Below the pieces are notes generated by a model. It did no database searches and was not told where the DNA came from. It was given only the letters and a program-made list of their open reading frames with translations. From contig CAIJXV010000073.1 in assembly GCA_903824675.1 (NCBI GenBank), positions 1-50,162 on the forward strand: 50,162 nt of DNA. The letters are read 5' to 3'. Below are positions 6,779 through 21,833 of this stretch, in pieces. Within the stretch, counting starts at the first letter, position 1. Every line of letters begins with the position of its first letter. A program made the translations under genes and the position numbers. Origin of the DNA: an uncultured bacterium. Its GTDB lineage: Bacteria; Verrucomicrobiota; Kiritimatiellia; CAIKKV01; CAIJXV01.

Positions 6779-7819
6779 ATGCTGAACTCATTGCTGGGAA
6801 TTTTTGCCGACGATATCGGGATCGATTTGGGGACGGCGAACACACTGGTCTATGTCCGTGATCAGGGTATCGTATTGCGCGAACCTTCCGTGGTAGCGGT
6901 CCAGGCGGGAACGCACCGGGTTTTAGCGGTGGGGGAAGAGGCCAAGAAAATGTTGGGCCGCACCCCGGGTAGTATTGTGGCCATCCGCCCAATGAAGGCC
7001 GGGGTTATTGCCGATTTTGAGATCACCGAGGCGATGTTACGGTATTTCATCCGGCGGGTTCAGAATACCCGGCGCATGATCCGGTTCCGTCCACGGGTGG
7101 TGATTGCGGTTCCCAGCGGGATCACCGAGGTGGAAAAGCGGGCGGTCAAGGATTCCGCCTTGCATGCCGGAGCGCGGGAAGTCTTTTTGATTGAAGAGCC
7201 GATGGCGGCCGCGATCGGGGTGGGTTTGCCGGTGCAGGAACCTGCCGGGAACATGATCGTGGACATCGGCGGCGGAACGACCGAGGTGGCAGTGATTTCC
7301 CTGGCGGGAATCGTGTTCTGCCGGAGTGTCCGCGTCGGCGGCGATGAAATGGACGAGTGCATCGTCCAGTACATGAAGCGGGTTTACAATTTGATGGTTG
7401 GCGAACGGACGGCAGAAGAGGTTAAAATCGACATTGGGTCCGCTTATCCAATGGCGGAAGAGACCACCATGCAGGTCAAGGGACGAGACTTGGTGGCGGG
7501 ACTTCCTAAAACCTTGACGATCACGTCCGAAGAGATTCGCGAGGCGTTGAAGGAGCCGGTTTCGGCAATTATCGACGCTATTCGGCTCACCTTGGAACGC
7601 TGTCCCCCGGAACTCTCCGCCGATCTGGTGGATCGGGGCATGGTGATGTCGGGTGGGAGTTCGATGTTGCGTGGGCTCGACAAGTTGATTGCCGAGCATA
7701 CAGGCCTGCCGGTGCATCGGGCGGATGATCCGCTCAGCGCTGTGGCCGAGGGAACCGGTGTCGTTTTGAACGAGCTGAATTTCCTGCGCAAAGTCGCCTC
7801 CAGTTCCGACCGAATCTGA
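6779..7819 (+). CDS. mreB: rod-shape-determining actin homologue MreB
   Basis: A 346-residue bacterial actin that polymerises on ATP beneath the inner membrane and positions the elongation machinery. All actin-fold signatures are visible: [15 protein letters not shown] (phosphate 1) near residue 12, [14 protein letters not shown], then [18 protein letters not shown] (phosphate 2) and the adenosine motif [12 protein letters not shown]. The N-terminal MLNSLLGIF forms a short amphipathic or hydrophobic start suited to membrane attachment. The ATG at 6779 has GAGG ten bases before. It is the first gene of an approximately 14-kb co-directional block, followed by mreC after 104 bp. Confidence 0.97.
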
Positions 7820-7923: not shown

Positions 7924-8814
7924 GTGCGGGGCAAAGGATATCTGACGGTTGTCATTTTAATTGTGGTTTTCCTGGTGGTGTTGAATCTCCCCCTGGCGGT
8001 TACCGGTCCTTTGCGGATGGCGGCCCGCGAACTCCTGACGCCTTCTCAAACCGTTCTGGTCCGGTTTCATCAATCCTTTCATTTTTGGTGGGAAGGTTGG
8101 GTTGGCGCCGGGCAATTGGCGAGGGAGAACGACCGCTTAAAGGGAGAAATGGCCTTATTGCGGGGTGAACTGGAAAAAGCCGATCGAGCCAATCGCGAAA
8201 ATGCCGAATTACGCGATTTATTGGGATTGAAGCAACAGGCCCGGGTGCCCCTGGTGGCGGCGGAAGTGATTGCTCGCGAAGACGGGGGCGGTTGGTGGCA
8301 GACGGTCCGTATTAATCGTGGGGATAACCATCGGATTCGTCCGGGATTACCGGTGATCGCATTGGAGGGATTAGTGGGGCGGACGACCAATGTAACGCCC
8401 AATACCAGTGATGTTCTGTTGATTTCAGATCCCAACTGCAAAGTGGGGGTACGCCTATCCGCAACCGGGGAGTTTGGAATTCTAAAAGGCTCTGGTCTGG
8501 CCGCTTCAGGCATGCCTCAGTTTGATGTGGTTTTACCTGCCGCTCCGCCGGAGATCGATTACCTGGCCAAGGAAGGGCCGGTCCTTGAAGGGGAAAAAGT
8601 TGTGACTTCTGGATTGGGTGGTGTTTTCCCTCCTGATATCCCGGTCGGTGTTCTGCTCAGCTCGAAAATGGATATTACGGGGCTTTTTCAACGGGCGCGG
8701 ATCCGTCCGTCCGTGGATCTGGCGCGATTAAGCAAAGTGTTTGTGATGATTTTGCCGGAAGAGACGGATCCGGGCCTGAGGAAATCAACCCTGATGGAGG
8801 GTGATGCGCCATGA
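7924..8814 (+). CDS. mreC: rod-shape-determining protein MreC
   Basis: A 296-residue periplasmic scaffold of the elongasome. One transmembrane helix lies at residues 5-27. A coiled-coil stretch of charged heptads covers about residues 60-100 (ENDRLKGEMALLRGELEKAD and following). The double beta-barrel MreC domain contains VIAREDGGGWWQTVRINRG and the segment VLLISDPNCKVGVRL. The start is GTG at 7924, with GTGAGG about ten bases upstream. Its last four bases overlap the mreD start (ATGA), indicating translational coupling. Confidence 0.93.
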   Translation: MRGKGYLTVVILIVVFLVVLNLPLAVTGPLRMAARELLTPSQTVLVRFHQSFHFWWEGWVGAGQLARENDRLKGEMALLRGELEKADRANRENAELRDLLGLKQQARVPLVAAEVIAREDGGGWWQTVRINRGDNHRIRPGLPVIALEGLVGRTTNVTPNTSDVLLISDPNCKVGVRLSATGEFGILKGSGLAASGMPQFDVVLPAAPPEIDYLAKEGPVLEGEKVVTSGLGGVFPPDIPVGVLLSSKMDITGLFQRARIRPSVDLARLSKVFVMILPEETDPGLRKSTLMEGDAP

Positions 8815-9323
8815 TCGGGGTGATATTGGCCGTCTTACTGGTGGGGGCCGGATTAATCCAGGACTTTATTCCAGGGGTATTGGTGTTGGGGCAGGTGAAA
8901 GCTCCGATTTTGTTGTCCCTGGTTCTCTATTACGCCCTGGCTCATTCGCGGACCACCCTGTTATGGGCGGCGATTCTCGGTGGGATCCTACAGGATTCGT
9001 TGAGCCTGGTTCCCATCGGTTACTCCGCCCTGACTTTCTGCCTCGTCGGGTTATGGCTTCGCCGTTTTCGCGAAGTTCTTTTCACCCAGTCCCTGGCGAC
9101 GGCTATCCTGGTCGGAGGAGTCGGGCATTTGCTGGTGTTGGGTTTGATCCAGATTTTGCTTCGATTGGGTGAGGATTGGGGGGGGGGCAGTTGGGGGAGC
9201 GCCCTCATGCGCCTGTTGGGTGCCTTGATCATGGGGATGGTGACCACCCCTGTTGTCTGGTGGCTGGCCCGGGCGATGGACGAACGCGTCGGTAATTTGT
9301 CGCCGACCCACGCGGAGATATGA
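8811..9323 (+). CDS. mreD: rod-shape-determining membrane protein MreD
   Basis: A 170-residue polytopic inner-membrane protein with about five hydrophobic helices, the size expected for MreD. MreD sequences are poorly conserved; the call rests on hydropathy, length, the segment GGILQDSLSLVPIGYSAL (the family's 'G-x-x-x-D' substrate-like loop) and its position between mreC and the PBP2 gene. It overlaps both neighbours by 4 bp. Confidence 0.85.
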   Translation: MIGVILAVLLVGAGLIQDFIPGVLVLGQVKAPILLSLVLYYALAHSRTTLLWAAILGGILQDSLSLVPIGYSALTFCLVGLWLRRFREVLFTQSLATAILVGGVGHLLVLGLIQILLRLGEDWGGGSWGSALMRLLGALIMGMVTTPVVWWLARAMDERVGNLSPTHAEI

Positions 9324-11137
9324 AGGATATGTCGATCGACTGGCAAGATGAGTTTATCAAGATTCGCGTGCTGATGCTGGCGATGATTGTCGTGCTCGTC
9401 TTGCTGATGGGGTTGCTCTGGCGTATCCAGGTAGCGCGCGGGGAAGATTATCGTGAAAGCCTCGCCCGGCAGAGCCTGCGGCGGATCCGGATTCCCGCTC
9501 AACGCGGTCGGATTTTGGATCGGAATGGCGTGTGTCTGGCCGATAACCGGCCGGAGTACAACGTGGCTCTTTATCTGGAGGAAATCAGGCGGAAAGGGAG
9601 TACGGTTCAGACCTTGCAATATGCGCTGGCCATCATTGACGAGATGTCGGACCTGTTGGGGCGACCGGCTGAAATTACCGAGGCGGATTTAAGATCACAT
9701 ATGCGACGGCGTTTGCCGTTACCTCTGATCTTGTGGCAGGATCTCGATTCAGCCGCCATCACCCGTTTGTCCGAACATGGCGAAAGTTTCCCCGGGACCG
9801 AGTTGGTGGTAGAGCCGATCCGGCATTACCCGCAAGGGACGATGGCCGCTCACCTCCTGGGTCAGGTGGGACGGGCGGGCGATTCGGGTGATGAGGGGGG
9901 GGGGTACCACTACGCCCTTCGCGACACCGAAGGTAAACGGGGGGTGGAGCTGACGTGCAACCGGGTTCTGAGCGGAACGCCGGGCGATCAGGTGGTGCGG
10001 ATTGATGTGGCGGGTTTCCGGCATGCGGAAAGCCAGGAGCGCGCGCCAGTCCCCGGGGATGATGTAGTTTTAAGTGTGGATATAAAAATTCAGCGCCTGG
10101 CCGAGGAAGCGCTGGCAAACGAAACCGGTGCGGTGGTTGTTTTGGATGTACAGAGTGGCGATGTATTGGCGATGGCCAGCGAACCGGGCTACGATCCAAA
10201 TGCCTTTGTGCCGGCCATTTCCGACCAGGATTGGAAGGCTCTCCTGGAGGATCCGGGCCGTCCGCTGATCAACCGGGCGACAGCCGAAACATATGCGGCC
10301 GGTAGTATTTTCAAGCCGGTGGTGGCGCTGGCCGCGCTATCCAGCGGATTAACCCGTGCCGAGACGGTTCATGACTGTCCGGGTTATTTCCAATTGGGCG
10401 CGGTGCGGTTTCATTGCGCGAATGCCAATGGGCATGGCCCGATCGCCTTGCGCAAGGCGATTGAACAGTCGTGCAATGTTTATTTTTGCGCGATGGGTAT
10501 GCAATGTGGCCATCAACCGATCGCGAATATGGCCCGGGCTTTTGGATACGGTGAACGGACGGGGATCGATCTGGATGTCGAAGCGGAGGGGTTGGTTCCG
10601 GATGAGGCCTGGAAACGCAAGGCGTGGCGGGATGCCTGGCGGGCCGGCGACACCTGTAACCTGTCGATCGGGCAGGGGGCGCTGTCGGTGACCCCTCTGC
10701 AGGTCGCGGTGATGGCCGCGGCCCTGGCCAATGGGGGGACGGTGCTGCGGCCCCGGTTGATTCGCGAGATCCGCAATCGGGAGGGCGGGCCCGTGCAGTC
10801 GTATGCTGTGGAGCGGGTTCGGACGCTGGCTTTGAATCCCGGGTATTTGACGGTGGTTCGACAGGGGATGCACGATGTGATTGAGTCGCCGGTGGGAACT
10901 GCGCATCGGGCGAGGATTGATGAGGTGGAGATGGCGGGAAAAACAGGGACGGCCGAATACGGGCAGAAAGGCGCCGGGCGCAAGCATGTGTGGATGATCT
11001 TGTATGCACCCTATAATCAACCGAAATACGCCGTGGCGATGGTGCTGGATGACGGCGTATCGGGGGGCCTGACGGTCGCTCCACGGATGCGGCTCTTGAT
11101 GACGGCCTTATTTGGGGGGGGAGAGTCAAACGGATGA
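9320..11137 (+). CDS. mrdA: penicillin-binding protein 2, elongation-specific transpeptidase
   Basis: A 605-residue class B PBP that cross-links peptidoglycan in the periplasm with RodA. There is a single transmembrane helix at about residues 14-34, then the dimerisation/pedestal domain beginning IPAQRGRILDRNGVCLADN. The transpeptidase domain has its three catalytic motifs: SIFK (Ser329, Lys332), SCN (Ser384, Asn386) and KTG (Lys541). The length and RGRI/DRNG signature fit PBP2 rather than FtsI. It overlaps mreD by the ATGA at 9320 and rodA by the ATGA at 11134. All active-site residues are present, so it is expected to be functional and beta-lactam sensitive. Confidence 0.95.
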   Translation: MKDMSIDWQDEFIKIRVLMLAMIVVLVLLMGLLWRIQVARGEDYRESLARQSLRRIRIPAQRGRILDRNGVCLADNRPEYNVALYLEEIRRKGSTVQTLQYALAIIDEMSDLLGRPAEITEADLRSHMRRRLPLPLILWQDLDSAAITRLSEHGESFPGTELVVEPIRHYPQGTMAAHLLGQVGRAGDSGDEGGGYHYALRDTEGKRGVELTCNRVLSGTPGDQVVRIDVAGFRHAESQERAPVPGDDVVLSVDIKIQRLAEEALANETGAVVVLDVQSGDVLAMASEPGYDPNAFVPAISDQDWKALLEDPGRPLINRATAETYAAGSIFKPVVALAALSSGLTRAETVHDCPGYFQLGAVRFHCANANGHGPIALRKAIEQSCNVYFCAMGMQCGHQPIANMARAFGYGERTGIDLDVEAEGLVPDEAWKRKAWRDAWRAGDTCNLSIGQGALSVTPLQVAVMAAALANGGTVLRPRLIREIRNREGGPVQSYAVERVRTLALNPGYLTVVRQGMHDVIESPVGTAHRARIDEVEMAGKTGTAEYGQKGAGRKHVWMILYAPYNQPKYAVAMVLDDGVSGGLTVAPRMRLLMTALFGGGESNG

Positions 11138-12315
11138 GCCCTGGCATCTCCATCGGAACGGCCCTGAAGCGAATGAACTGGGTGATGAACCTGGCCATAT
11201 TGGTTTTGCTGGTGGTCGGTGTATTGTTCGTCTACAGCGCAACCTCTGCCCGTGAGGAACAGACGATCCGGTGGCTGTGGCGTAAGCAGTTGTTTTGGGC
11301 ACTGGCCGGATTGGGGGTTTACCTGGGAATGGCGGTTTTTGACTATCGCCGATTGAGAGATCAGGCTCCGCTGATCTATGGTTTCGCCCTTGTTTTGCTG
11401 GTCGTAGTGCTGGTGATGGGGACCCGGATTTATGGCGCGCGCCGCTGGCTGATGTTTTTCGGGATGGGAATCCAGCCGTCTGAATTGGCAAAAGTGGCGG
11501 TGATCCTGGCGTTGGCGGCGTGGCTGAGTCGTCACAAGACGGGGAACGACCGACTGTCGGTGTTTTTGGGCGCGGTGGCTCTGGCCGCCATTCCGGCAGC
11601 GCTGATCCTGGTGGAGCCGGATCTCGGGACCACGTTGATATTGGGGCCGATCCTGCTGGCCCTGTTGTATACGGGGGGCGGTTCAATGAAGGCGTTGACG
11701 GTTGTGTTGGCGCTGGGTTTTCTGGCGGTCACCTTCATTCTAGGGGCGATCCTGTTGCCGGAACGGTGGGGCTGGTCGCCTGAGCGGCAGGAAAAAATCC
11801 AGACCCTGACGGGGCTGAGTACTTATCAACGTGACCGGGTTCGGGTGTTTTTGAATCCTGACAGCGATCCGATGGGCGCAGGGTGGAACAAGCGCCAGTC
11901 GGAAATTGCGGTGGGGTCGGGCGGATTGTTGGGAAAAGGATTTCGGAAGGGGACCCAGAATATGCTAGGGTTCCTTCCGAAAACGGTGGCGCCGACGGAT
12001 TTTATTTTTTCCGTGATTACGGAAGAGATGGGGTTTATGGGGTCGGCGTTGATTCTAGGCTCCTTTGCCATGCTGATCCTGAGCGGGTTACAAGCCGCGA
12101 TGGCCGGGAATGACCGGTTTGGGCGGCTGATTTGTGTGGGAGTTATTGCGATGTTGTTCAGTCATGTTGTGGTGAATGTGTCGATGACCATCGGCTTGAT
12201 GCCGGTAACGGGGTTACCGTTGCCCTTGATCAGCTATGGGGGCACATTCATGGTGTCGATTTTGGCGGCGCTCGGAATGACGCAAAGCGTTTATATTCGG
12301 AGGGCCGGAATTTGA
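11134..12315 (+). CDS. rodA: SEDS-family peptidoglycan polymerase RodA
   Basis: A 393-residue polytopic membrane glycosyltransferase that polymerises lipid II in partnership with PBP2. About ten hydrophobic helices are visible. Hallmarks are GARRWLMFFGMGIQPSELAK (fourth helix region), VEPDLGTTLILGPI with the SEDS-type Asp, and the C-terminal GLMPVTGLPLPLISYGGTFM. FtsW shares these motifs; the RodA identity rests mainly on its place directly after the PBP2 gene in an mre cluster. Its start overlaps mrdA by 4 bp. Confidence 0.95.
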   Translation: MSPGISIGTALKRMNWVMNLAILVLLVVGVLFVYSATSAREEQTIRWLWRKQLFWALAGLGVYLGMAVFDYRRLRDQAPLIYGFALVLLVVVLVMGTRIYGARRWLMFFGMGIQPSELAKVAVILALAAWLSRHKTGNDRLSVFLGAVALAAIPAALILVEPDLGTTLILGPILLALLYTGGGSMKALTVVLALGFLAVTFILGAILLPERWGWSPERQEKIQTLTGLSTYQRDRVRVFLNPDSDPMGAGWNKRQSEIAVGSGGLLGKGFRKGTQNMLGFLPKTVAPTDFIFSVITEEMGFMGSALILGSFAMLILSGLQAAMAGNDRFGRLICVGVIAMLFSHVVVNVSMTIGLMPVTGLPLPLISYGGTFMVSILAALGMTQSVYIRRAGI

Positions 12316-12350
12316 AAACGGATGGATTGGATAGAATGAAAGAGGGAGTC

Positions 12351-13964
12351 ATGAATTTGTTGAATCTGTTTCGGCGCAAAAAATTCAACCGGGAAATCGT
12401 TGTCAATTGCGAGCGTTTGGAGACGCGGGTGGCGGTGATGGAAAATAAGCGCCTGGAGGAGTTCCAATTGGAGCATCCCTCCGAGGAACGGTTGGTGGGC
12501 AGTGTCTTTAAAGGGCGGATCCAGAATCTGGAGAGCGGCTTGCAGGCGGCATTTGTCGATATCGGTTTGAAAAAGAACGCCTTTTTGCACTATTGGGACA
12601 TGATTCCGGAAGATGCGGCCCGACTGGAGGCGGCCGAAGAAGGGGGCGGGCGCAATCTGCCCCGTAAAAAGCGTTTTGCGCACGATGAAATTCAAAAAAT
12701 GTTCCCGATCGGTTCGGAAATTGTGGTCCAGGTGACCAAGGGTCCGATCAGCACCAAAGGGCCGCGGGTGACGACGAATCTGAGTATTCCCGGGCGATTC
12801 CTGGTGATGTTGCCGGGAAGTGATTTGAAAGGGGTTTCGCGCAAAATCGAGAATGACAAGGAGCGCCAGCGTCTGAAAAAAATCCTGAGCCGGCTACCCA
12901 TTCCGGAAGGCATTGGATTGATCGTGCGGACGGCCGGGGAGGACGCCAACCAGCGCAGTTTCGTGCGCGATGCCCGGAGCCTGATCGAGATCTGGGAACA
13001 GATTCGGACCGGGATGCGCGACCTCGCCGCTCCCTGCTGTCTCTACCGCGAACCCGATTTGGTGGAACGGGTTTTACGTGATTGGATGACCGAGGAGATT
13101 GATCGCATCGTCATCGATTCCGCAGAGCCCTATGAAAAAGCCCGTGACTTGGCGACCCGGATTTCGCGCCGGATGCGTTCCCGAATCCAACTCTACGATG
13201 GACAGAATCCCATTTTTGAACATTTCAACATTGAGAGTCAGATCGAGCAGGCCTTTGGACGCAAGGTAAATCTCAAGTCCGGCGGCTGCGTGGTGATCGA
13301 CGAAACCGAAGCCATGATTGCGATCGATGTCAACACCGGCCGCCACAAAGGCGCCCATACCCAGGAGGAATCGATTCTGGAGGTGAACACCGAGGCGGTC
13401 GAGGAAGTGGCGCGTCAGTTGCGCTTGCGAAATATCGGCGGGTTGGTGGTGATCGACCTGATCGATATGAAGCAAAAGAAGAACCGCAATGCCGTTTACA
13501 AGACGCTCAAGGACGCTTTGCGCCGGGACAAAGCCCGGACCAATGTCCTGCAGATTTCCCAGCTGGGTCTGCTGGAGATGACCCGTCAGAGGGTGGAGGA
13601 GGGGGTTCGTTCGGCAATGTATGTCACCTGTCCCTATTGTGGGGGGCATGGCAGTGTTAAATCTCCATTGAGTATGAGTGTGGAGGTGCAGCGGCAGATT
13701 TCGGCCGTCATGCGGCGGCGGAGCGATCCGCGCAAGGGCGCGTTAAAACTTCAGATTGTCGTCCATCCGACGGTCTTGGAAAGATTGCGGACAGAGGACG
13801 AGGCGATTTTAGTTAATTTGCAGGAGAAATTTGCAGGCGACCTGTCCTTCCGCGCAGATTCCAATCGACATGTGGAGGAATTTGCGATACGTAATGCGGA
13901 AACGGGCGAGTTATTGTACGGGAAAAATGAAACTCCGGCGGCCGAACAACGGGCGCCCGGGTGA
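12351..13964 (+). CDS. rng: ribonuclease E/G family endoribonuclease
   Basis: A 537-residue RNase G-like enzyme that processes rRNA and mRNA 5' monophosphate ends. The S1 domain is near the start (VGSVFKGRIQNLESGLQAAF, VDIGLKKNAFLHY). The DNase I-like catalytic domain contains IAIDVNTGRHKG and VVIDLIDMKQKKNR, which supply the two Mg-binding Asp residues. The zinc-link CPYCGGHG follows. There is no long C-terminal scaffold, so it is G-type rather than a full RNase E. The ATG at 12351 is chosen because AGGGAG precedes it by a few bases; an ATG at 12336 is possible. It follows rodA after 35 bp. In many bacteria rng sits beside mre genes, consistent with this order. Confidence 0.93.
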   Translation: MNLLNLFRRKKFNREIVVNCERLETRVAVMENKRLEEFQLEHPSEERLVGSVFKGRIQNLESGLQAAFVDIGLKKNAFLHYWDMIPEDAARLEAAEEGGGRNLPRKKRFAHDEIQKMFPIGSEIVVQVTKGPISTKGPRVTTNLSIPGRFLVMLPGSDLKGVSRKIENDKERQRLKKILSRLPIPEGIGLIVRTAGEDANQRSFVRDARSLIEIWEQIRTGMRDLAAPCCLYREPDLVERVLRDWMTEEIDRIVIDSAEPYEKARDLATRISRRMRSRIQLYDGQNPIFEHFNIESQIEQAFGRKVNLKSGGCVVIDETEAMIAIDVNTGRHKGAHTQEESILEVNTEAVEEVARQLRLRNIGGLVVIDLIDMKQKKNRNAVYKTLKDALRRDKARTNVLQISQLGLLEMTRQRVEEGVRSAMYVTCPYCGGHGSVKSPLSMSVEVQRQISAVMRRRSDPRKGALKLQIVVHPTVLERLRTEDEAILVNLQEKFAGDLSFRADSNRHVEEFAIRNAETGELLYGKNETPAAEQRAPG

Positions 13965-13990
13965 TGACTTACCGCAAGGATTCAGCGCCT

Positions 13991-16225
13991 ATGAAACGGA
14001 TGATACGAGCGTTGTGGCTGGTCAGCTGGTTGGCTGGTTCGATCGGGGTTTGGGCGGGGCCCGCCGGAGTGGTCAAAGATCCGCTGGCCGGACTGGATTG
14101 GAATTCCTCCGCGAGTCCGGTCGCGGTCAACGCCCGCGAGATGAATTTCGATCTCAAAGAACAGGTGATGACGCTGACCGGGGATGCCATGATCCGACGG
14201 GAAGATGTCTCTCTGCAGGCGGATTCGATTGAATGGCGCAAGCAGGATCAGATCGCGCATGCCCACAGTAACGTGGTGTTCCGACGTGGAAATATGGTCT
14301 GGCGCGGCCAGGAAATCACCTATAATTTTTCAAATCAATATTGGAAAACGGGTGCGTTCACGGCCTTTATTGATCCTTACTATGTGACGGCCGCCGGGGC
14401 GGAACGGGTATCCGAGACGGAATACCTGTTGCGCGATGCCCAATTGACCACCTGCACCAATTCGGCCTGCCATGAGCATTATGTGGTTCAAGCCCATGAT
14501 GTATCCGTCAAGCCCGGGGATCGGTTGCTGGCACATCAGGCGACCTTTTACCTCGGGGCGGTTCCCATCTTTTACAGTCCCGTCTGGCGGCGTATCCTGG
14601 ACGATCGGTATGCCGGTTTGAGTTTGCGGCCCGGGTATGCGAGTTCGATGGGCATTTACCTGTTGAGCGCTTATTCATGGCCCCTCGCGCCGGGTTTGAA
14701 AACAACCAGTCATGTGGATTTGCGGTCCTCGCGCGGAGTGGCCGCCGGACAGGATCTCGATTGGAATTCGGCTTCCGGCGGTGACGGGGGCGCTGAATTC
14801 TATTTTGCCAATGATCTGAAAGCGGAAGACGATTACCCGGATGAATTCGATGCCGGGGATGTCGATAGCAATCGGTACCGGTTCCGGTTGCATCACCATC
14901 AACCGATATCCCAGGAGGATTATTTCCTGGCGGAAGTGAATTATGTGGCCGATCCCTACGTCATCGATGATTTTTTTGAAAGTGAATACCGGCGGACGGG
15001 TGAGCCGGAAAATTATCTCAACCTGGTTCATAGCGATGAACTCCTGACCGCCGGCTTGTTGACCCGGTTTCGTCTCAATGATTTCTACACCGTTGTTGAG
15101 CGCCTGCCGGAAGCCACGTTGGATTTCAACCGCCGGGAAATTCCGGACACGTCTTTCTATTTCGAAAGCTTCAATTCCGCCTCCTTTTTGAATAAAGCGT
15201 GGGAATCCGATTCGACTGAGGACGATTTCTCTGTTTTCCGGATGGATTCACAGGATACGATCTATTATCCCGGCCGATATTTTGGGTTTCTGAGTGTCGT
15301 GCCCCGCGCCGGGGGTCGGGGGACCTTCTATTCTCAGACGATTGAGACGCGGGAGATCAGCGAGGTGACGGCCAATGTCGATACGAACGGCGTGATGACA
15401 ACCGTGACCAATACCACCTTGACGACGGAGGAAATGGGGGCTGCGGTGCGCGCCATGATGGAACTGGGGGTGGAAACCTCCTTCAAGGCCTTCCAGAGCT
15501 GGGATACCGCACCCTCACCCCTGTTTGACGGTCTGCGTCACATCGTTGAGCCTTATATGAATTATACCTTCATTCCAGAACCGAATATTGAGCCCGGAGA
15601 ACTCTATCAATTTGACGATCTGGATGCACTCGACAAGCAAAATACCGTCGCTTTCGGGGTGCGCAATAAGTTGCAGACCCGCCGCGACAACCGACCCTGG
15701 GACCTGATCGATTTGGACCTTAATACCGTCTATAATCTGGATCCCAAGGAGGGAGACGACAATCTGGAATCGATCAATCTCTGGACTGAAATCAAGCCCG
15801 TAGATTTTTTCAAGCTCAATGCCGATGGCTCCTATGACACGCAGGAGAGCCAGTTGTCGACGTTTAACACCCGACTCTGGTATATCGAAGAGCTTTGGCG
15901 GGTGGGCGTCGAGCATCGGTACCGGGTCGACAGCAGCGATCTGATTTCAACGATGGTCAATTGGATGCCGAATTCCCGATGGTTGGTCGAGGCCTACTGG
16001 CGTTATGAAGCACAGGATTCCCAGTTGGAAGAGCAAGGGTATGTGGTGCAGCGAAACTTGGATTGCCTTTCGATCCGGATGGGCGTCACCCATTTGCCCA
16101 GTTATACCCAGGAGGATGGCACCGAGCAGGCACAAGATTTCCGGATTGAATTCGCAATCGGAGTGAATGCGTTTCCGGATGCTTTGCTGGGTAATTCCCA
16201 GCGCCATAAAGTGGTTATGCCCTGA
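13991..16225 (+). CDS. lptD: LptD-like LPS-assembly outer-membrane protein
   Basis: A 744-residue protein with a signal peptide (MKRMIRALWLVSWLAGSIGV, cut near WAG). An OstA/LptA-like beta-jellyroll follows (VNAREMNFDLKEQVMTLTGD to about residue 150). The rest is a beta-barrel-rich region that begins after AQLTTCTNSACHEHYVV, where LptD proteins have paired cysteines. It would insert lipopolysaccharide in the outer leaflet with LptE, supporting a diderm envelope. The ATG at 13991 has AAGGA ten bases upstream and gives a clean signal peptide. The alternative ATG at 13961 overlaps rng by 4 bp and would add ten residues. The C-terminal barrel contains an unusual Thr-rich insert near 15390-15430. 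Confidence 0.85.
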   Translation: MKRMIRALWLVSWLAGSIGVWAGPAGVVKDPLAGLDWNSSASPVAVNAREMNFDLKEQVMTLTGDAMIRREDVSLQADSIEWRKQDQIAHAHSNVVFRRGNMVWRGQEITYNFSNQYWKTGAFTAFIDPYYVTAAGAERVSETEYLLRDAQLTTCTNSACHEHYVVQAHDVSVKPGDRLLAHQATFYLGAVPIFYSPVWRRILDDRYAGLSLRPGYASSMGIYLLSAYSWPLAPGLKTTSHVDLRSSRGVAAGQDLDWNSASGGDGGAEFYFANDLKAEDDYPDEFDAGDVDSNRYRFRLHHHQPISQEDYFLAEVNYVADPYVIDDFFESEYRRTGEPENYLNLVHSDELLTAGLLTRFRLNDFYTVVERLPEATLDFNRREIPDTSFYFESFNSASFLNKAWESDSTEDDFSVFRMDSQDTIYYPGRYFGFLSVVPRAGGRGTFYSQTIETREISEVTANVDTNGVMTTVTNTTLTTEEMGAAVRAMMELGVETSFKAFQSWDTAPSPLFDGLRHIVEPYMNYTFIPEPNIEPGELYQFDDLDALDKQNTVAFGVRNKLQTRRDNRPWDLIDLDLNTVYNLDPKEGDDNLESINLWTEIKPVDFFKLNADGSYDTQESQLSTFNTRLWYIEELWRVGVEHRYRVDSSDLISTMVNWMPNSRWLVEAYWRYEAQDSQLEEQGYVVQRNLDCLSIRMGVTHLPSYTQEDGTEQAQDFRIEFAIGVNAFPDALLGNSQRHKVVMP

Positions 16226-16240
16226 CCCTGAAAGGATCTC

Positions 16241-17194
16241 ATGCCGGTGGAATATCTTGTGACAGGCGGTTGTGGTTTTATTGGTTCCAACATCGTGCGG
16301 ACACTGGCGAAGGAGGGTCGTCCGGTCCGGGTTCTTGACAACCTGGCCACGGGGAATCTCCTCAATATTCGAGATTTAATCGATCAGGGGATCGTCGAAT
16401 TTCAACATGGCGACATCCGTAGTCCGGACGCAGCCGCGAAGGCCTGCGAAGGGATTCGTTATGTTCTGCACTTGGCGGCCCTGCCGTCCGTGATTGGGTC
16501 GGTCGAGGATCCCGCGTTGTCCCATGCGGTTAATCTCGATGGGGTGGTGAATATGCTGGTCGCCGCCCGCAAGGCGGGTGCGCAGCGATTCGTGTTTTCC
16601 TCCTCGTCCGCAGTTTATGGAGATGATCCGGAATTGCCCAAACGCGAAAACATGCTTCCCGCTCCGCTTTCGCCGTATGCCGTTCAGAAACTTTCCGGCG
16701 AGTATTATTGCCGTATTTTTCATGGGCTTTACGGTTTGGAGACCTTCTGCCTGCGTTATTTTAATGTCTTTGGACCCCGCCAAAATCCCCGGTCACAATA
16801 TGCCGCGGTGGTGCCGTTGTTCATCGAGGCGGTGAAACAGGGACGCCAACCCGTGGTCTTTGGAGATGGCGGGCAAACCCGTGATTTCATTTATGTCGGC
16901 GATATTGTTCGGGCTAATCTTCAATGTTGTCGTGCGCCCGCTTCAGCTGCCGGCGGGGTTTATAACATCGCTTGGGGCGATCGAATGACCATCAAGGAAT
17001 TAGCGGAGACGGTTGCGAAAACCATGGGCCACCCCGAAATCCTTGCGCGGCACGAACCGCCCCGGCCCGGCGAAATCCGCGATTCGCAGGCGGATACCAC
17101 CCAGGCGAAAGGGGTCTTGGGATGGACGCCACAAGTGCCTTTTGTCGAAGGCCTCAAACGCACCGTCGAATGGTTTGCTCATGGCGTGGGATGA
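16241..17194 (+). CDS. extended-SDR nucleotide-sugar epimerase/dehydratase
   Basis: A 317-residue NAD-dependent enzyme of the UDP-glucose/UDP-GlcNAc 4-epimerase group. The Rossmann motif TGGCGFIGSN is at residues 8-17. The catalytic set includes the SSSSAVYGDDPELPK serine region and Tyr-x-x-x-Lys in YAVQKLSGEYY. The RYFNVFGPRQNP motif is typical of WbpP/TviC-like epimerases acting on UDP-N-acetylhexosamines, but substrate is not provable by eye. AAGGA lies six bases before the ATG at 16241. It sits between lptD and the DNA polymerase gene, and its last 14 bp overlap the polymerase start. A role in surface glycan precursor supply would fit the envelope genes upstream. Confidence 0.88.
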   Translation: MPVEYLVTGGCGFIGSNIVRTLAKEGRPVRVLDNLATGNLLNIRDLIDQGIVEFQHGDIRSPDAAAKACEGIRYVLHLAALPSVIGSVEDPALSHAVNLDGVVNMLVAARKAGAQRFVFSSSSAVYGDDPELPKRENMLPAPLSPYAVQKLSGEYYCRIFHGLYGLETFCLRYFNVFGPRQNPRSQYAAVVPLFIEAVKQGRQPVVFGDGGQTRDFIYVGDIVRANLQCCRAPASAAGGVYNIAWGDRMTIKELAETVAKTMGHPEILARHEPPRPGEIRDSQADTTQAKGVLGWTPQVPFVEGLKRTVEWFAHGVG

Positions 17195-19460
17195 ACTGAA
17201 AGATCCCCTGTTGGCTGGTGCCAATTCCCGTTCCGGAGTGGTGGCGGTTGAGTGGGTTGAAGGTCGGGGATCAGTGGGCGACCGAATGGCGGTTTTTACG
17301 CGTGCCGCCGATCAGGTTCAGGTCGACGAGGAGCCGTTTCGCCCCTTTCTTCTTCTGGCGGATCGCGTTCTTCTCGCTGATATTCCAGGCATTGAATGGG
17401 TGGAATTAGAGGGGGCCGGCGCCCTCCGCTGGCAGGCGGTTTTCACCCAATGGAAGGCTTGTGTAAAGGCCAAGACCCGCCTGGCTCAACAAACCGGTGT
17501 TTCTGCCGGTGCGCCCAATGCGCCTTATCTGTTTCTTTCGGATCCTGTTCATCAGCACCTCCTGAATACCGGCCTGACGCTGTTTAAAGGAATGCGGTTT
17601 GATCGCCTTCGCCGTCTCCAACTGGATATCGAATGCCGAACAACGCCCGGCTATGAATTCTGTAATGCCGGACGTGAAGGCGATGTCATTCTCGCCATCG
17701 GGTTGGGTCTGTCGGATGGGTCGGTTCAGACTCTGGCGCTGGGACGCGATGGGGACGAGGCCGATCTCTTAAAAAAACTGGTCGACTTTGTCCGTCAATA
17801 CGACCCGGATGTCATAGAGGGTCATAATCTATTCAATTTCGATTTGCCTTACTTAGCGGAACGGGCCGCTCGTTTGGGAATTCCTTTAACCCTGGGCCGC
17901 ATGGATCGGCTGGTGCAGATGAAGCCCAGTCGTTTTTCCATAGGGGACCGAATGGTGGCCTATTCGCGGTTCGATTTGTTTGGCCGACAGGTTATCGATA
18001 CCTATTTTCTCGCACAACTTTACGATTTGTCCCACCGTGAATTAGAGAGCTATGGGTTGAAAGCCGTGGCCCGCCATTTCGGCGTGGCGGCGCCTGACCG
18101 GACTTACCTGGCGGGAGGCGAGATCTCCGCTGAGTTTGACCGAAATCCCCAAAAAGTCCTGCATTATTTGGCCGATGACATTAGGGAGACCCGCTCGCTG
18201 TCTGATCTGTTGACCCCGGCCTATTTTATCCAGTCCCAATTTTTGCCCTTCAGTTATCAAAATATCGCCGTACGGGGAAACGCGACCAAGATCGACGCCC
18301 TGTTGGTTCGTGAATATTTACGGCAGAAAACCGCCTTGCCGCTATCGGATACCGCCCGCGCTTTTGCCGGGGGGTATACCGATCTTTTTCGTCAGGGGCT
18401 GGTCCGAAATGTTCATCATGTGGACGTACGGTCACTCTATCCATCCTTAATGCTGACCCGTCGGATAGCGCCGCGAAGCGATGGGTTGGGGGTCTTTTTA
18501 AAACTCTTGGATACCTTGCGCACTTTTCGTCTCGATGCCCGGCAGCGGATGTCCGTATCGGACGGAACCGAGCGATCCTATTTGGATGCCCTGCAGTCGA
18601 CCTATAAAATCCTGATCAATTCTTTTTATGGATATCTGGGTTTTAGTCAGGCTCATTTCAGCGATTTTGATGCCGCTGAGCGAGTTACGGCCGATGGGCG
18701 GGCACTGATGAACGATATGCTGGCGACCCTGCGCCGGTTGGGGGCCACTCCGGTCGAAAGTGATACCGACGGGATCTATTATGTGCCGCCACCCTTCCTG
18801 ACGCCGAAAGACGCCCCCGCATTCCAGGAGGCGTTCCGGTTCTCATTGCCCGAAGGCATTGAAGTCGAGTTTGATGGTGAATATCCGGCGATGTATGCCC
18901 ATCGGATGAAAAATTACGCCTTGGCCACCGCCGAAGGCGGAATGATTCTCAAAGGCGCGGCCTTGAAATCAAGAGGGTTGGAACCTTTCCAACGTGAATT
19001 TATGCGTGATTTTCTGCGCTGTCGATTGGCCGGACAGGAGGAGCGCCTGCCGGCGCTCAAGGCGGAGTATGGTGAGGCAATTCGTTTGCGCCGTAAACCG
19101 ATTCGCTGGCTGGCCAAGACGGAAACCCTTCAGGATAACCCCGCCACCTATGCCGCCAAACTCGGCAAAGGGGCCCGGTCCCGGAATGCCGCCTATGAAC
19201 TGGTCCTGCAGTCGAACCGCACTTATCGCGCCGGCGACCAGGTCTCGTATTATGTCACCGGCACCCGCGCCGATGTCCCTGTCCATAGCCACGCCCGGCT
19301 GACCGCAGATTGGAATCCCGCTGCCCGTGATGAAAATATCGCCTATTATCTCGCTAAATTGGACGCTTTGTATGATAAATTCACAACCGCCGTGGATGAC
19401 GCGGCTGAGGATAGTCCGGAATTGCCCGGCTTGGGTCGGGTGTCTGGAACTTCAGAATAA
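17181..19460 (+). CDS. family B DNA polymerase with 3'-5' exonuclease
   Basis: A 759-residue replicative-type fold polymerase. Exonuclease motifs: I, LDIEC (Asp149, Glu151); II, GHNLFNFD (Asn216, Asp221); III, YLADD (Tyr329, Asp333). Polymerase motifs: A, DVRSLYPS (Asp415); B, KILINSFYG (Lys476, Asn480, Tyr483, Gly484); C, SDTDG (Asp528, Asp530). All catalytic residues are present. The spacing between motifs A and B (about 60 residues) is short, making a compact enzyme compared with Escherichia coli Pol II (783 residues). The start ATG at 17181 overlaps the epimerase gene by 14 bp; the open frame upstream is a shadow. A damage-tolerance or repair role is likely, as bacteria replicate with family C enzymes. 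Confidence 0.92.
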   Translation: MAWDELKDPLLAGANSRSGVVAVEWVEGRGSVGDRMAVFTRAADQVQVDEEPFRPFLLLADRVLLADIPGIEWVELEGAGALRWQAVFTQWKACVKAKTRLAQQTGVSAGAPNAPYLFLSDPVHQHLLNTGLTLFKGMRFDRLRRLQLDIECRTTPGYEFCNAGREGDVILAIGLGLSDGSVQTLALGRDGDEADLLKKLVDFVRQYDPDVIEGHNLFNFDLPYLAERAARLGIPLTLGRMDRLVQMKPSRFSIGDRMVAYSRFDLFGRQVIDTYFLAQLYDLSHRELESYGLKAVARHFGVAAPDRTYLAGGEISAEFDRNPQKVLHYLADDIRETRSLSDLLTPAYFIQSQFLPFSYQNIAVRGNATKIDALLVREYLRQKTALPLSDTARAFAGGYTDLFRQGLVRNVHHVDVRSLYPSLMLTRRIAPRSDGLGVFLKLLDTLRTFRLDARQRMSVSDGTERSYLDALQSTYKILINSFYGYLGFSQAHFSDFDAAERVTADGRALMNDMLATLRRLGATPVESDTDGIYYVPPPFLTPKDAPAFQEAFRFSLPEGIEVEFDGEYPAMYAHRMKNYALATAEGGMILKGAALKSRGLEPFQREFMRDFLRCRLAGQEERLPALKAEYGEAIRLRRKPIRWLAKTETLQDNPATYAAKLGKGARSRNAAYELVLQSNRTYRAGDQVSYYVTGTRADVPVHSHARLTADWNPAARDENIAYYLAKLDALYDKFTTAVDDAAEDSPELPGLGRVSGTSE

Positions 19461-19480
19461 CACCGAACAGGAGCATAATC

Positions 19481-20734
19481 ATGGCTGTCAAAGATTTTAA
19501 GTCTGCTTACAAAACCATCATGGATGACCACTTTGCGTCTGAAATGGAGATCAGTTTCATCGACGGAAACCGGCGGGAAACTCTGCGCTATGCCAAGGTC
19601 TCCTGGCTGATCGACGGCGTGAACAAAGGGTTGCGTTATGGGGAAAATCCTGGCCAGGAGGCGGCCCTGTACAAGTTGGTGAATGGTAATCTGGCGCTCG
19701 GTGATGTGCAGACGATCCAGCCGGGTCGGTATTTGGCTTCGGATGTCGAATTGGTGCAATCCGGCAAACATCCCGGAAAAACCAATATCACTGACATTGA
19801 CAACGCTCTCAACATTCTTCGCTATTTTGTCGATCAGCCTTGCGCCGTGATCGTCAAGCACAACAATCCCAGTGGCGTGGCCTTGGGCAAGACCCTGGCC
19901 GAGGCGTTTCACCGGGCCAACATGGCGGACCGCGTAGCGGCCTTTGGCGGTGCGATTGCCTTGAATCGGGAGGTGGACCGCGAAACTGCCGAAGCGATCG
20001 CTTCGCAATATGCCGAAGTGGTGGCTGCGCCCGAATTCGCGCCCGGGGTCATGGATCTATTTGGGAAGAAGAAGAATCTGCGCGTGATGCGGGTTGCCAA
20101 TATGAGTCGCCTCCAGGAATTTGTCGGTGAGATCTGCGTCGATTTCAAGTCGCTGATCGATGGCGGATTGATCCTTCAAACGTCATTTGTGCCCCGGGCG
20201 CGGCGCTCCGCGGATCTTCAGCCGGCCCAGGCAACCTTCCAGGGGCGGGAGGTGCGCATTGCGCGATTGCCGACCGAAGCGGAGATGTCAGACCTGCTTT
20301 TTGGATGGTTGGTCGAAGCGGGCGTGTCGAGTAATTCGGTCCTGTATGTCAAGGACGGGGTGACCGTTGGGATTGGGACCGGCGAACAGGACCGTGTGGG
20401 CGTGGCTGAAATCGCACGAGACAAGGCCTATCGCAAGCTGGCTGACCGGATTTCCTGGGAACGATTCAAAACTCCTTATAATAGTTTGAAAGACCTCGAT
20501 GCCCGGGCCATGATCGATCGCGAAGTGGCGGAGAAAAAAGGAGGGCTGATCGGCGCCTGCATGGTGTCGGATGCCTTTTTCCCCTTCCGCGATGGGGTCG
20601 AAGTGGGGTTGCGCGAAGGCATTACCGCTGTGATTCAGCCAGGCGGATCGGATCGCGATGCCGAGGTGATCGACGCTTGCAATGAGTATCAGGCGGCCAT
20701 GGTCTTCACGGGACAACGCAGTTTCAAGCATTGA
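19481..20734 (+). CDS. purH: AICAR transformylase, stand-alone (PurH C-terminal domain only)
   Basis: A 417-residue enzyme that formylates AICAR with 10-formyl-THF in the ninth step of de novo purine synthesis. Recognisable elements are LRYGENPGQEAALY, the active-site VIVKHNNPSGVALG (Lys126, His127; the usual Cys before Gly is Ser here), AFGGAIALNREVD, DAFFPFRDGVE and the C-terminal MVFTGQRSFKH. The MGS-like IMP cyclohydrolase domain that fills the first 150 or so residues of normal PurH is absent; only about 50 other residues precede LRYGENP. The start at 19481 has AACAGGAG upstream. It ends the mreB-initiated block, 20 bp after the polymerase. IMP cyclohydrolase must be supplied elsewhere. 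Confidence 0.88.
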   Translation: MAVKDFKSAYKTIMDDHFASEMEISFIDGNRRETLRYAKVSWLIDGVNKGLRYGENPGQEAALYKLVNGNLALGDVQTIQPGRYLASDVELVQSGKHPGKTNITDIDNALNILRYFVDQPCAVIVKHNNPSGVALGKTLAEAFHRANMADRVAAFGGAIALNREVDRETAEAIASQYAEVVAAPEFAPGVMDLFGKKKNLRVMRVANMSRLQEFVGEICVDFKSLIDGGLILQTSFVPRARRSADLQPAQATFQGREVRIARLPTEAEMSDLLFGWLVEAGVSSNSVLYVKDGVTVGIGTGEQDRVGVAEIARDKAYRKLADRISWERFKTPYNSLKDLDARAMIDREVAEKKGGLIGACMVSDAFFPFRDGVEVGLREGITAVIQPGGSDRDAEVIDACNEYQAAMVFTGQRSFKH

Positions 20735-20948
20735 AATTGCAAACAGATGGAATTGGGGCGGGAAATGTTCGTCGATCGTGTTCTTGCCGTGACGGGAAAC
20801 CGCTAAGGTGTCGGTAAGTCAAAAACGGACGCCCTGTGGCGGTACGTGCGACCGATATCTCCGGGTTTCATTCATTGCGAAATGAGTTGAAAAATAAAGG
20901 CGGATGGCGCAGAGTTCCCCGTTGAATCACCCCTTTTGTGAGAATTTC

Positions 20949-21833
20949 ATGGAATGGATTAATTTAACGGGTATGGAATTAAAACGCGCGGCCCAAAAGG
21001 GGGGCGTGGTGGTGTTGCCCTTGGGGAGTATTGAGGCCCATGCAGATCATTTGCCCTTAGGGAACGATACATTTAAAGTGAATGCGGCCTGTATTGAGGC
21101 CACGTCTCGTGCGGAACCGGCGGTTCTGCTTCCTCCGCTCTATTATACCGAAGTCAAGTCCATGCAGGCGGCTCCCGGTGCGGTTACTTTGCGGGGACGC
21201 ATTTTGGTCGATCTGGTGCTCGACTTGTGCGATGAAGCCGCGCGAAACGGGTTCTCCAAGATCCTTCTGGTCAGCGGCCATGGGGGGAATCGACATTGGG
21301 TCGATTTTTTTATGACAGAGTGGCTGGCCTTGGATCGGGCTTATTCGATTTTCTTCTGGTACATGCCCTTATTGGGCAAACCGGAGAACAAAAAGTACAT
21401 GGAGACAGAGTTTGACGGGCATGGCGGGGAAGCGGAGACCAGCCTGGCTCTGCACCTCTTTCCGCAACTGGTGAAAATGAAGGGGGCGGGGCGTGCCTTG
21501 CACCCGGCCCGGGTTCCTGATTTGCGGGGTGCGGTGACGCCCTTCGATTGGGTATCAAAATGGCCCCAGGCCGTGTCGGGCGATCCCTTCCCGGCGACGG
21601 CAGAGAAGGGGCGCATCTTTTTTGAGAGTGCGGTGGACGCGATGGCGGAGGTGATTGAGGCCGTGCGGGCGGACCAGATGACGTCTCAATTCCAGCAAAA
21701 ATATCAGAAAGCCCGCCGGGCACCGGTCTGGCCAACGGTATTGGGTCCTCGGGCGAAGAGTCGGGTGGACCGGAAAAAACAATCCGCGCGTAGAGCCGGG
21801 GCATTGAACTCAGGAGACCGATATGAGCACTGA
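20949..21833 (+). CDS. creatininase/MftE-family amidohydrolase
   Basis: A 294-residue metal-dependent hydrolase. The ligand motifs are complete: GSIEAHADHLPLGND near residue 31, SGHGGN near 115, and GHGGEAETS near 157. Family members cleave cyclic amides (creatinine, formamide derivatives) or process a peptide cofactor; the substrate here is unknown. The ATG at 20949 matches the usual family N-terminus. An in-frame ATG at 20904, with AAAGG very close before it, would add 15 residues. It is followed by rubrerythrin with an 11-bp overlap, so both are probably transcribed together, though no functional link is obvious. Confidence 0.85.
   Translation: MEWINLTGMELKRAAQKGGVVVLPLGSIEAHADHLPLGNDTFKVNAACIEATSRAEPAVLLPPLYYTEVKSMQAAPGAVTLRGRILVDLVLDLCDEAARNGFSKILLVSGHGGNRHWVDFFMTEWLALDRAYSIFFWYMPLLGKPENKKYMETEFDGHGGEAETSLALHLFPQLVKMKGAGRALHPARVPDLRGAVTPFDWVSKWPQAVSGDPFPATAEKGRIFFESAVDAMAEVIEAVRADQMTSQFQQKYQKARRAPVWPTVLGPRAKSRVDRKKQSARRAGALNSGDRYEH

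Follow-up and report, generated by a model that had tools for sequence, protein, structure and literature searches.

The stretch of DNA analysed here (the window) comprises 50,162 nucleotides of a contig (CAIJXV010000073.1) from an uncultured bacterium of the Kiritimatiellia, and its element of interest is polB, a gene for a B-family DNA polymerase placed at the end of a series of cell-envelope genes. An earlier note, made from the letters alone, had described a compact enzyme in an envelope-biogenesis operon, likely distinct from DNA polymerase II (Pol II) of enterobacteria and perhaps a repair polymerase of a "PVC-type" (Planctomycetes-Verrucomicrobia-Chlamydiae).

The polB gene and its active sites

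The open reading frame of polB is open and intact. Its product is matched, in part, by the Pfam models DNA_pol_B_exo1 (68 bits) and DNA_pol_B (65 bits; cut-off 23 for each), and nothing else in the 4.24 Mb genome matches PF00136 at E 0.001. For comparison, relatives were gathered from pattern-matched genome-contig stretches, at least 535 of 588 of which encode one; the 80 genome loci discussed below are the best 80 of these. In an alignment (A2) of 39 rows, consisting of the window protein, 35 of the 80 genome loci and three of 13 viral loci, the residues D149/E151, N216/D221, Y329/D333, D415, K476, D528/D530 and K577/Y579 are invariant throughout, so that the full complement of exonuclease and polymerase motifs listed in the earlier note is present and conserved. 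The AlphaFold model has a mean predicted local distance difference test score (pLDDT) of 91.6, the last 21 residues being the low-confidence exception, and matches B-family structures over its whole length. As read from its sequence, the product is a complete proofreading B-family DNA polymerase with intact exonuclease and polymerase sites. Nor is the gene a chance reading of the letters, since 45 genomes out of 97 in the order and class, counting that of the window itself, have a polB match, and the full-length copies are 46-60% identical. The features of the locus are collected in Table 1.

Table 1. Coordinates of polB, its motifs and its neighbours in the window
Feature	Position	Strand	Basis
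MreB	6779..7819	+	gene annotation
MreC	7924..8814	+	gene annotation
MreD	8811..9323	+	gene annotation
PBP2-type transpeptidase	9320..11137	+	gene annotation
RodA/FtsW family	11134..12315	+	gene annotation
RNase E/G family	12132..13964	+	Pfam; start codon provisional
LptD-like outer-membrane protein	13961..16225	+	LptD models below cut-off
NAD-dependent sugar epimerase/dehydratase	16241..17194	+	Pfam
Overlap of polB start and epimerase end, 14 bases	17181..17194	+	ATG at 17181, epimerase stop at 17194
polB, group G3 B-family DNA polymerase, 759 aa	17181..19460	+	open reading frame, Pfam, trees
Exo I, D149 and E151	17625..17633	+	invariant, 39/39 aligned rows
Exo II, N216 to D221; GHN at 214-216	17826..17843	+	protein sequence, alignment
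Exo III, Y329 to D333, DEDDy type	18165..18179	+	alignment
Motif A, D415, DVRSLYP	18423..18443	+	sequence, alignment
Motif B, K476, KILINSFYG	18606..18632	+	sequence, alignment
Motif C, ESDTDG, G3/Pol-epsilon-N glutamate E526	18756..18773	+	alignment; PMC7544198
KxY motif, K577-Y579	18909..18917	+	alignment
PurH-type aminoimidazole carboxamide ribonucleotide (AICAR) transformylase, 20 bases after polB	19481..20734	+	Pfam, NCBIfam

Placement in the bacterial PolB group G3

Three lines agree in assigning polB to G3, the second largest of the bacterial B-family groups (PMC7544198, PMC12926913). First, in a tree of 65 rows all 50 G3 candidates lie on the same side of one branch, and in a second tree of 50 rows, from which a long crAss row and 14 others had been dropped, the 38 G3 candidates all group together (bootstrap/SH-aLRT 100/100); this group takes in the polymerases of Salinibacter and Nostoc phages and leaves out three Pol II rows. 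According to Kazlauskas et al. (2020), phages of Salinibacter and Nostoc are the only viral carriers of G3; the accessible text names no particular Nostoc phage, and the Nostoc phage that anchors G3 in the trees is therefore an assumed identity (PMC7544198). Second, a glutamate in motif C, described as a synapomorphy of Pol-epsilon-N, B10 and G3 (PMC7544198), is carried by 79 of the 80 genome loci, motif C being unreadable in the last one, but by neither E. coli Pol II nor Pfu. Third, three NCBIfam models for Pol II give the window protein only 92, 72 and 60 bits against cut-offs of 570, 1103 and 1435, and its Exo II motif reads GHN rather than GWN, the signature of the Pol II clade (PMC7544198). 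Judged from sequence, polB is thus a new member of an already published group. G2 (PolB2), in which the exonuclease is inactivated and motif C altered (PMC7544198), was considered and rejected, the sites of the window protein being intact.

Several observations nevertheless weigh against this placement. The first tree took in 38 of the 80 genome loci and the tree tool flagged long branches meeting in it; neither tree contains sequences of Pol epsilon, B8, B9 or B10; and the row of Nostoc phage N1 lacks the motif C glutamate. Against a close tie to Pol epsilon in particular, profile similarity to solved structures is greatest for archaeal PolB at 264 bits, whereas Pol delta reaches 137 bits, Pol II 122, Pol alpha 118 and Pol epsilon 106. 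When the model was searched with Foldseek, the top 50 rows were likewise archaeal-type, and the structural Z-scores (33.0 for the best archaeal chain, 28.7 for Pol II and 28.0 for Pol epsilon) do not separate the groups; fold searching was accordingly dropped as a means of telling Pol epsilon from archaeal kin.

The trees also bear on the earlier note's supposition that the enzyme differs from the enterobacterial one. A divergent orthologue of Pol II, acting as an SOS-induced translesion polymerase, would account for the shared domain order and fold and for the fact that the best NCBIfam model, though far below its cut-off, is a Pol II model; E. coli Pol II (G1) further resembles the window protein in its DEDDy exonuclease joined to a polymerase and in its similar size (783 aa). 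However, both trees separate polB from the three Pol II rows and join it to the published G3 members instead; it carries GHN in place of GWN, and it has a motif C unlike the YGDTDS of the E. coli enzyme, an interval of 61 residues between motifs A and B where the three Pol II rows have 74, and no detectable LexA-type site (see below). Trees, motifs, NCBIfam scores and the A-B interval together lead us to reject Pol II orthology, to which we attach next to no probability. The supposed distinctness hence stands, although "PVC-type" proves too narrow a label, as G3 spans many phyla and phages, with kin in Deltaproteobacteria, Rokubacteria, Deinococcus plasmids and phages. The note's suggestion of a repair polymerase is plausible.

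The short interval itself, given as about 60 residues in the earlier note, was measured correctly, since D415 and K476 are 61 residues apart, but it does not distinguish the window protein. The interval is 61-63 in 78 of the 80 genome loci (two could not be read by the regular expression), which rules it out as a unique trait and makes it a mark of the group. Elsewhere, two Deinococcus rows have 58 residues, two Salinibacter phages 63 and 65, and Pfu 83. Both finger helices (438-457 and 462-486) are kept in the AlphaFold model, so the shortening falls in the loop of the palm that leads from motif A into the fingers. In Pol epsilon this interval is the place of the P domain, for which the 61 residues of the window protein leave no room; the long C-terminal half of Pol epsilon is missing as well. 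The published description has the P domain as a palm insertion, and the N-terminal half of the eukaryotic enzyme resembles the window protein in its motif C glutamate (PMC7544198) and in its fold (Z 28).

Operon setting and distribution

Upstream of polB the genes follow the order mreB-mreC-mreD-PBP2-rodA-RNase G-lptD-epimerase, with polB closing the operon, so that the envelope-biogenesis setting, the overlap with the epimerase gene and the purine gene on the other side were all correctly noted before. A promoter scan of positions 16000-21000, which yielded five sites in total against 2.8 by shuffling, placed no sigma-70-like site in the stretch from 16000 to polB; one promoter-like site came out at 19451-19479, just before the AICAR gene. 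As the start of polB moreover overlaps the epimerase gene, the polymerase is likely co-transcribed with the genes upstream of it. The PurH-type protein itself (417 aa) consists of the AICAR transformylase part only (profile 205-511 of 511); the inosine monophosphate (IMP) cyclohydrolase part is missing, and that step would need another protein.

The neighbourhood of lptD and polB recurs in relatives. Of 29 loci in relatives, 19 have an lptD homologue immediately upstream of polB or separated from it by a single epimerase gene; the 29 are the best matches other than the window, with an upstream reach of at most about 1,500 bases. In the 80 genome-contig loci it lies beside polB in 17; the two sets overlap, several genomes of the first recurring in the second. 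The window's own LptD served as query, and a divergent LptD would escape it. Seven loci further share the order PBP2-rodA-RNase G-lptD, PBP2 and RodA having been named there by reading representatives. The 17 linked loci are titled Kiritimatiellae, Lentisphaerae/Lentisphaerota, Verrucomicrobia or uncultured, and with this query no linkage was found among loci titled Deltaproteobacteria, Rokubacteria or Planctomycetes. On these sequence comparisons the lptD-polB setting is old within one lineage and specific to it, a pattern that favours growth-linked expression over a direct function in the envelope. A literature search, which did not extend to subscription journals or supplements, found no report of the linkage, and in the accessible text of the two G3 papers (PMC7544198, PMC12926913), whose G3 members the window protein otherwise resembles in domain order, active sites, motif C glutamate and kinship with Salinibacter and Nostoc phages, we did not find a setting in an mre-rod-rng-lptD operon described.

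Across the phylum, 190 of 387 sampled genomes have a polB match (143 of 310 among the better ones), a handful of the 190 being weak matches (E 1e-4 to 1e-17) that might represent other polymerases. This survey suggests that G3 is common in one whole phylum. The nearest named relatives are titled Kiritimatiellae and Lentisphaerae; the titles and labels of the relatives also include Verrucomicrobia, Deltaproteobacteria, Rokubacteria, Methylomirabilota, Binatota, Nitrospirota and anammox Planctomycetes, and more distant kin are found in phages and on Deinococcus and cyanobacterial plasmids. What is new here is mainly the frequency of G3 in the phylum and its conserved place beside lptD, the family itself having been described already; the significance, which is modest, rests on these two and on the as yet uncharacterised biochemistry of G3.

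The presence of G3-side genes in phages of Salinibacter and of cyanobacteria, and on plasmids of Deinococcus and of cyanobacteria, raises the question of whether polB might be a captured phage or plasmid replicase. In the second tree, however, the phage rows fall outside a 29-row chromosomal clade, the chromosomal place beside lptD is kept in 19 of the 29 best-matching loci, and no phage family occurs among the Pfam matches of the annotated genes between 6.8 and 22.4 kb. With neither the phage searches nor the second tree in its support, capture appears very unlikely.

Among the plasmid-borne relatives, those of the cyanobacterial conjugative plasmids pCHRO.01 (L034, 1891-9844) and pANACY.02 (L180, 1-4051) encode proteins of about 600 aa and stand beside plasmid dnaN and gamma/tau genes, with holA too on pCHRO.01; these sets possibly constitute a plasmid-borne replisome. 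A locus filed as a Klebsiella plasmid (L178) shows araA-araD-polB-rapA, the usual chromosomal order, and the record is probably mislabelled or a large excised piece.

Control of expression and probable role

The genome does carry a lexA-umuD-umuC run: a lexA gene, whose product has a DNA-binding domain, is followed by genes for an S24 peptidase (umuD-like) and a Y-family polymerase (umuC-like; L037 703-3200, G000:C32), and the palindrome CTATACATTTGTACAG stands in front of this lexA. Upstream of 13 lexA-like genes, drawn from 30 loci with the own genome included and some perhaps not LexA orthologues, exact TACAnnTGTA occurs in four (the own genome among them) and exact GAAC-N4-GTTC in five, nine of the 13 having one or the other. 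These motifs, inferred from the lexA promoters, might possibly represent a new LexA box for this lineage. TACAnnTGTA occurs five times in the whole genome against 26 for its reversed control, and, as judged by eye, the copy at lexA is the only one of the five next to a recognisable SOS gene.

Neither motif has an exact copy anywhere in the window. With one mismatch, TACAnnTGTA has six sites in the window against 3.8 expected, of which only that at 10649 is in the operon, and GAAC-N4-GTTC has 23 against 20.8, with operon sites at 10463 and 11257 and none between 11300 and 22900. The LexA box of Verrucomicrobia is TGTTC-N4-GAACA; with two mismatches it gives 13 sites in the window against 19.5 expected, one of them at 17546, inside polB. 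The search with these motifs for a LexA box in front of polB thus came back empty, the near-copies of the two lexA-derived motifs being at chance level with none close to the gene.

Further hints on function come from the C-termini. A clamp-like pattern is present in 32 of the 64 scorable relatives' tails against 3.4 expected from shuffles. The pattern was written after seeing the tails, 16 of the 80 rows could not be scored, and two of the 32 matches (QEFL in L082 and L090) look false; conversely, five of the unscorable rows (L065, L087, L110, L112 and L114) end in clear motifs of the QPTLF/QLSLF/QLTLF type. An earlier pattern had matched 42 of 105 tails, some falsely. Conserved clamp motifs, along with conserved exonuclease and polymerase motifs, are also attributed to the experimentally uncharacterised G3 group by Timinskas et al. 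(2026; PMC12926913).

The intact proofreading site of all 39 aligned rows, together with these tails, suggests an accurate, clamp-assisted polymerase, a view also put forward for G3 in PMC12926913. We consider it probable that polB, as a complete proofreading G3 (Pol-epsilon-N-like) enzyme, serves as a constitutive high-fidelity accessory polymerase for gap-filling or fork rescue. It would be made constitutively together with the growth operon and, beside DNA polymerase III, would accurately fill gaps or take over stalled or mismatched 3' ends, gaining access in many relatives through a predicted binding to the beta clamp. The genome encodes, in addition, DnaE1, a DnaE2-like protein and two Y-family polymerases.

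Published in vivo data concern the polB of Deinococcus deserti (Deide_1p00180), which is transcribed but not UV-induced (PMC2669436) and whose loss leaves UV mutagenesis unchanged (PMC8072749). At 765 aa it equals the L036 gene in length and plasmid, both trees put it on the side of G3, and it shares with the window protein the motif C glutamate (in its aligned row) and a short A-B interval (58). Given this position, its printed name "Pol II" looks misleading, and the mutant data on the Deinococcus "Pol II" become in vivo hints for G3. It differs from the window gene in being plasmid-borne.

Set against a constitutive accessory role are the following points. Identity between the D. deserti protein and that of the window is just 31%, and the former sits on a deeper branch. 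The window protein's own tail does not match the clamp pattern; lacking the recognisable C-terminal motif of published G3 members, it must be recruited differently or weakly. The absence of the gene from about half of the relatives indicates that it is dispensable. Constitutive expression is something we infer, and the literature search mentioned above found no biochemistry or enzyme assay of any G3 member.

A dedicated mutagenic lesion-bypass polymerase under some other damage control would be another role for such an enzyme, and the D. deserti copy has been named a translesion polymerase in print (PMC2669436). Additionally, polB is present in each of the five genomes, out of 97, that have no match to PF00817 (Y-family) at E 0.001 (Fisher p 0.019, uncorrected for kinship), although two of these belong to one genus, one is 63% complete and one has a polB fragment only; by the Pfam cut-off, a sixth genome without Y-family genes (G093) is also without polB. 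Against this stand the proofreading site kept in every aligned row, a Y-family copy number that otherwise does not differ (Mann-Whitney p 0.32), and the D. deserti gene, neither UV-induced nor needed for UV mutagenesis (PMC2669436, PMC8072749). We therefore regard lesion bypass as unlikely. Comparably doubtful is the proposal that in the window's class the G3 polymerase might be a growth-coupled standing part of the replication machinery, encoded within the elongation and envelope operon to make its level follow cell growth, and might stand in for Y-family polymerases where species have lost them.

A further conceivable role is that of an outside proofreader replacing a lost exonuclease of DNA polymerase III. 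In the window genome, however, the PHP domain of DnaE1 still has HxH and NDVH, which are presumably the motifs of an intact PHP. Hence nothing seems to need replacing here, and such compensation was set aside for this genome. The idea draws on the Chlorobi, all species of which have G3 while their PHP is inactive and no canonical DnaQ was found (PMC12926913); for the window gene we give it very little credence, and an accessory polymerase for gap-filling or fork rescue remains the preferred reading.

Two gene neighbourhoods in relatives may be recorded alongside. On a plasmid of Deinococcus aetherius (L033, 1150-14112) the polB homologue has other repair genes nearby, lying among genes for DinB, a NucS-domain protein, a UvrD-type helicase and a uracil-DNA glycosylase. 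In four Rokubacteria loci (L087, L110, L112 and L114) a radical S-adenosylmethionine (SAM) gene, SplB-like by sequence reading, follows polB by one or two open reading frames.

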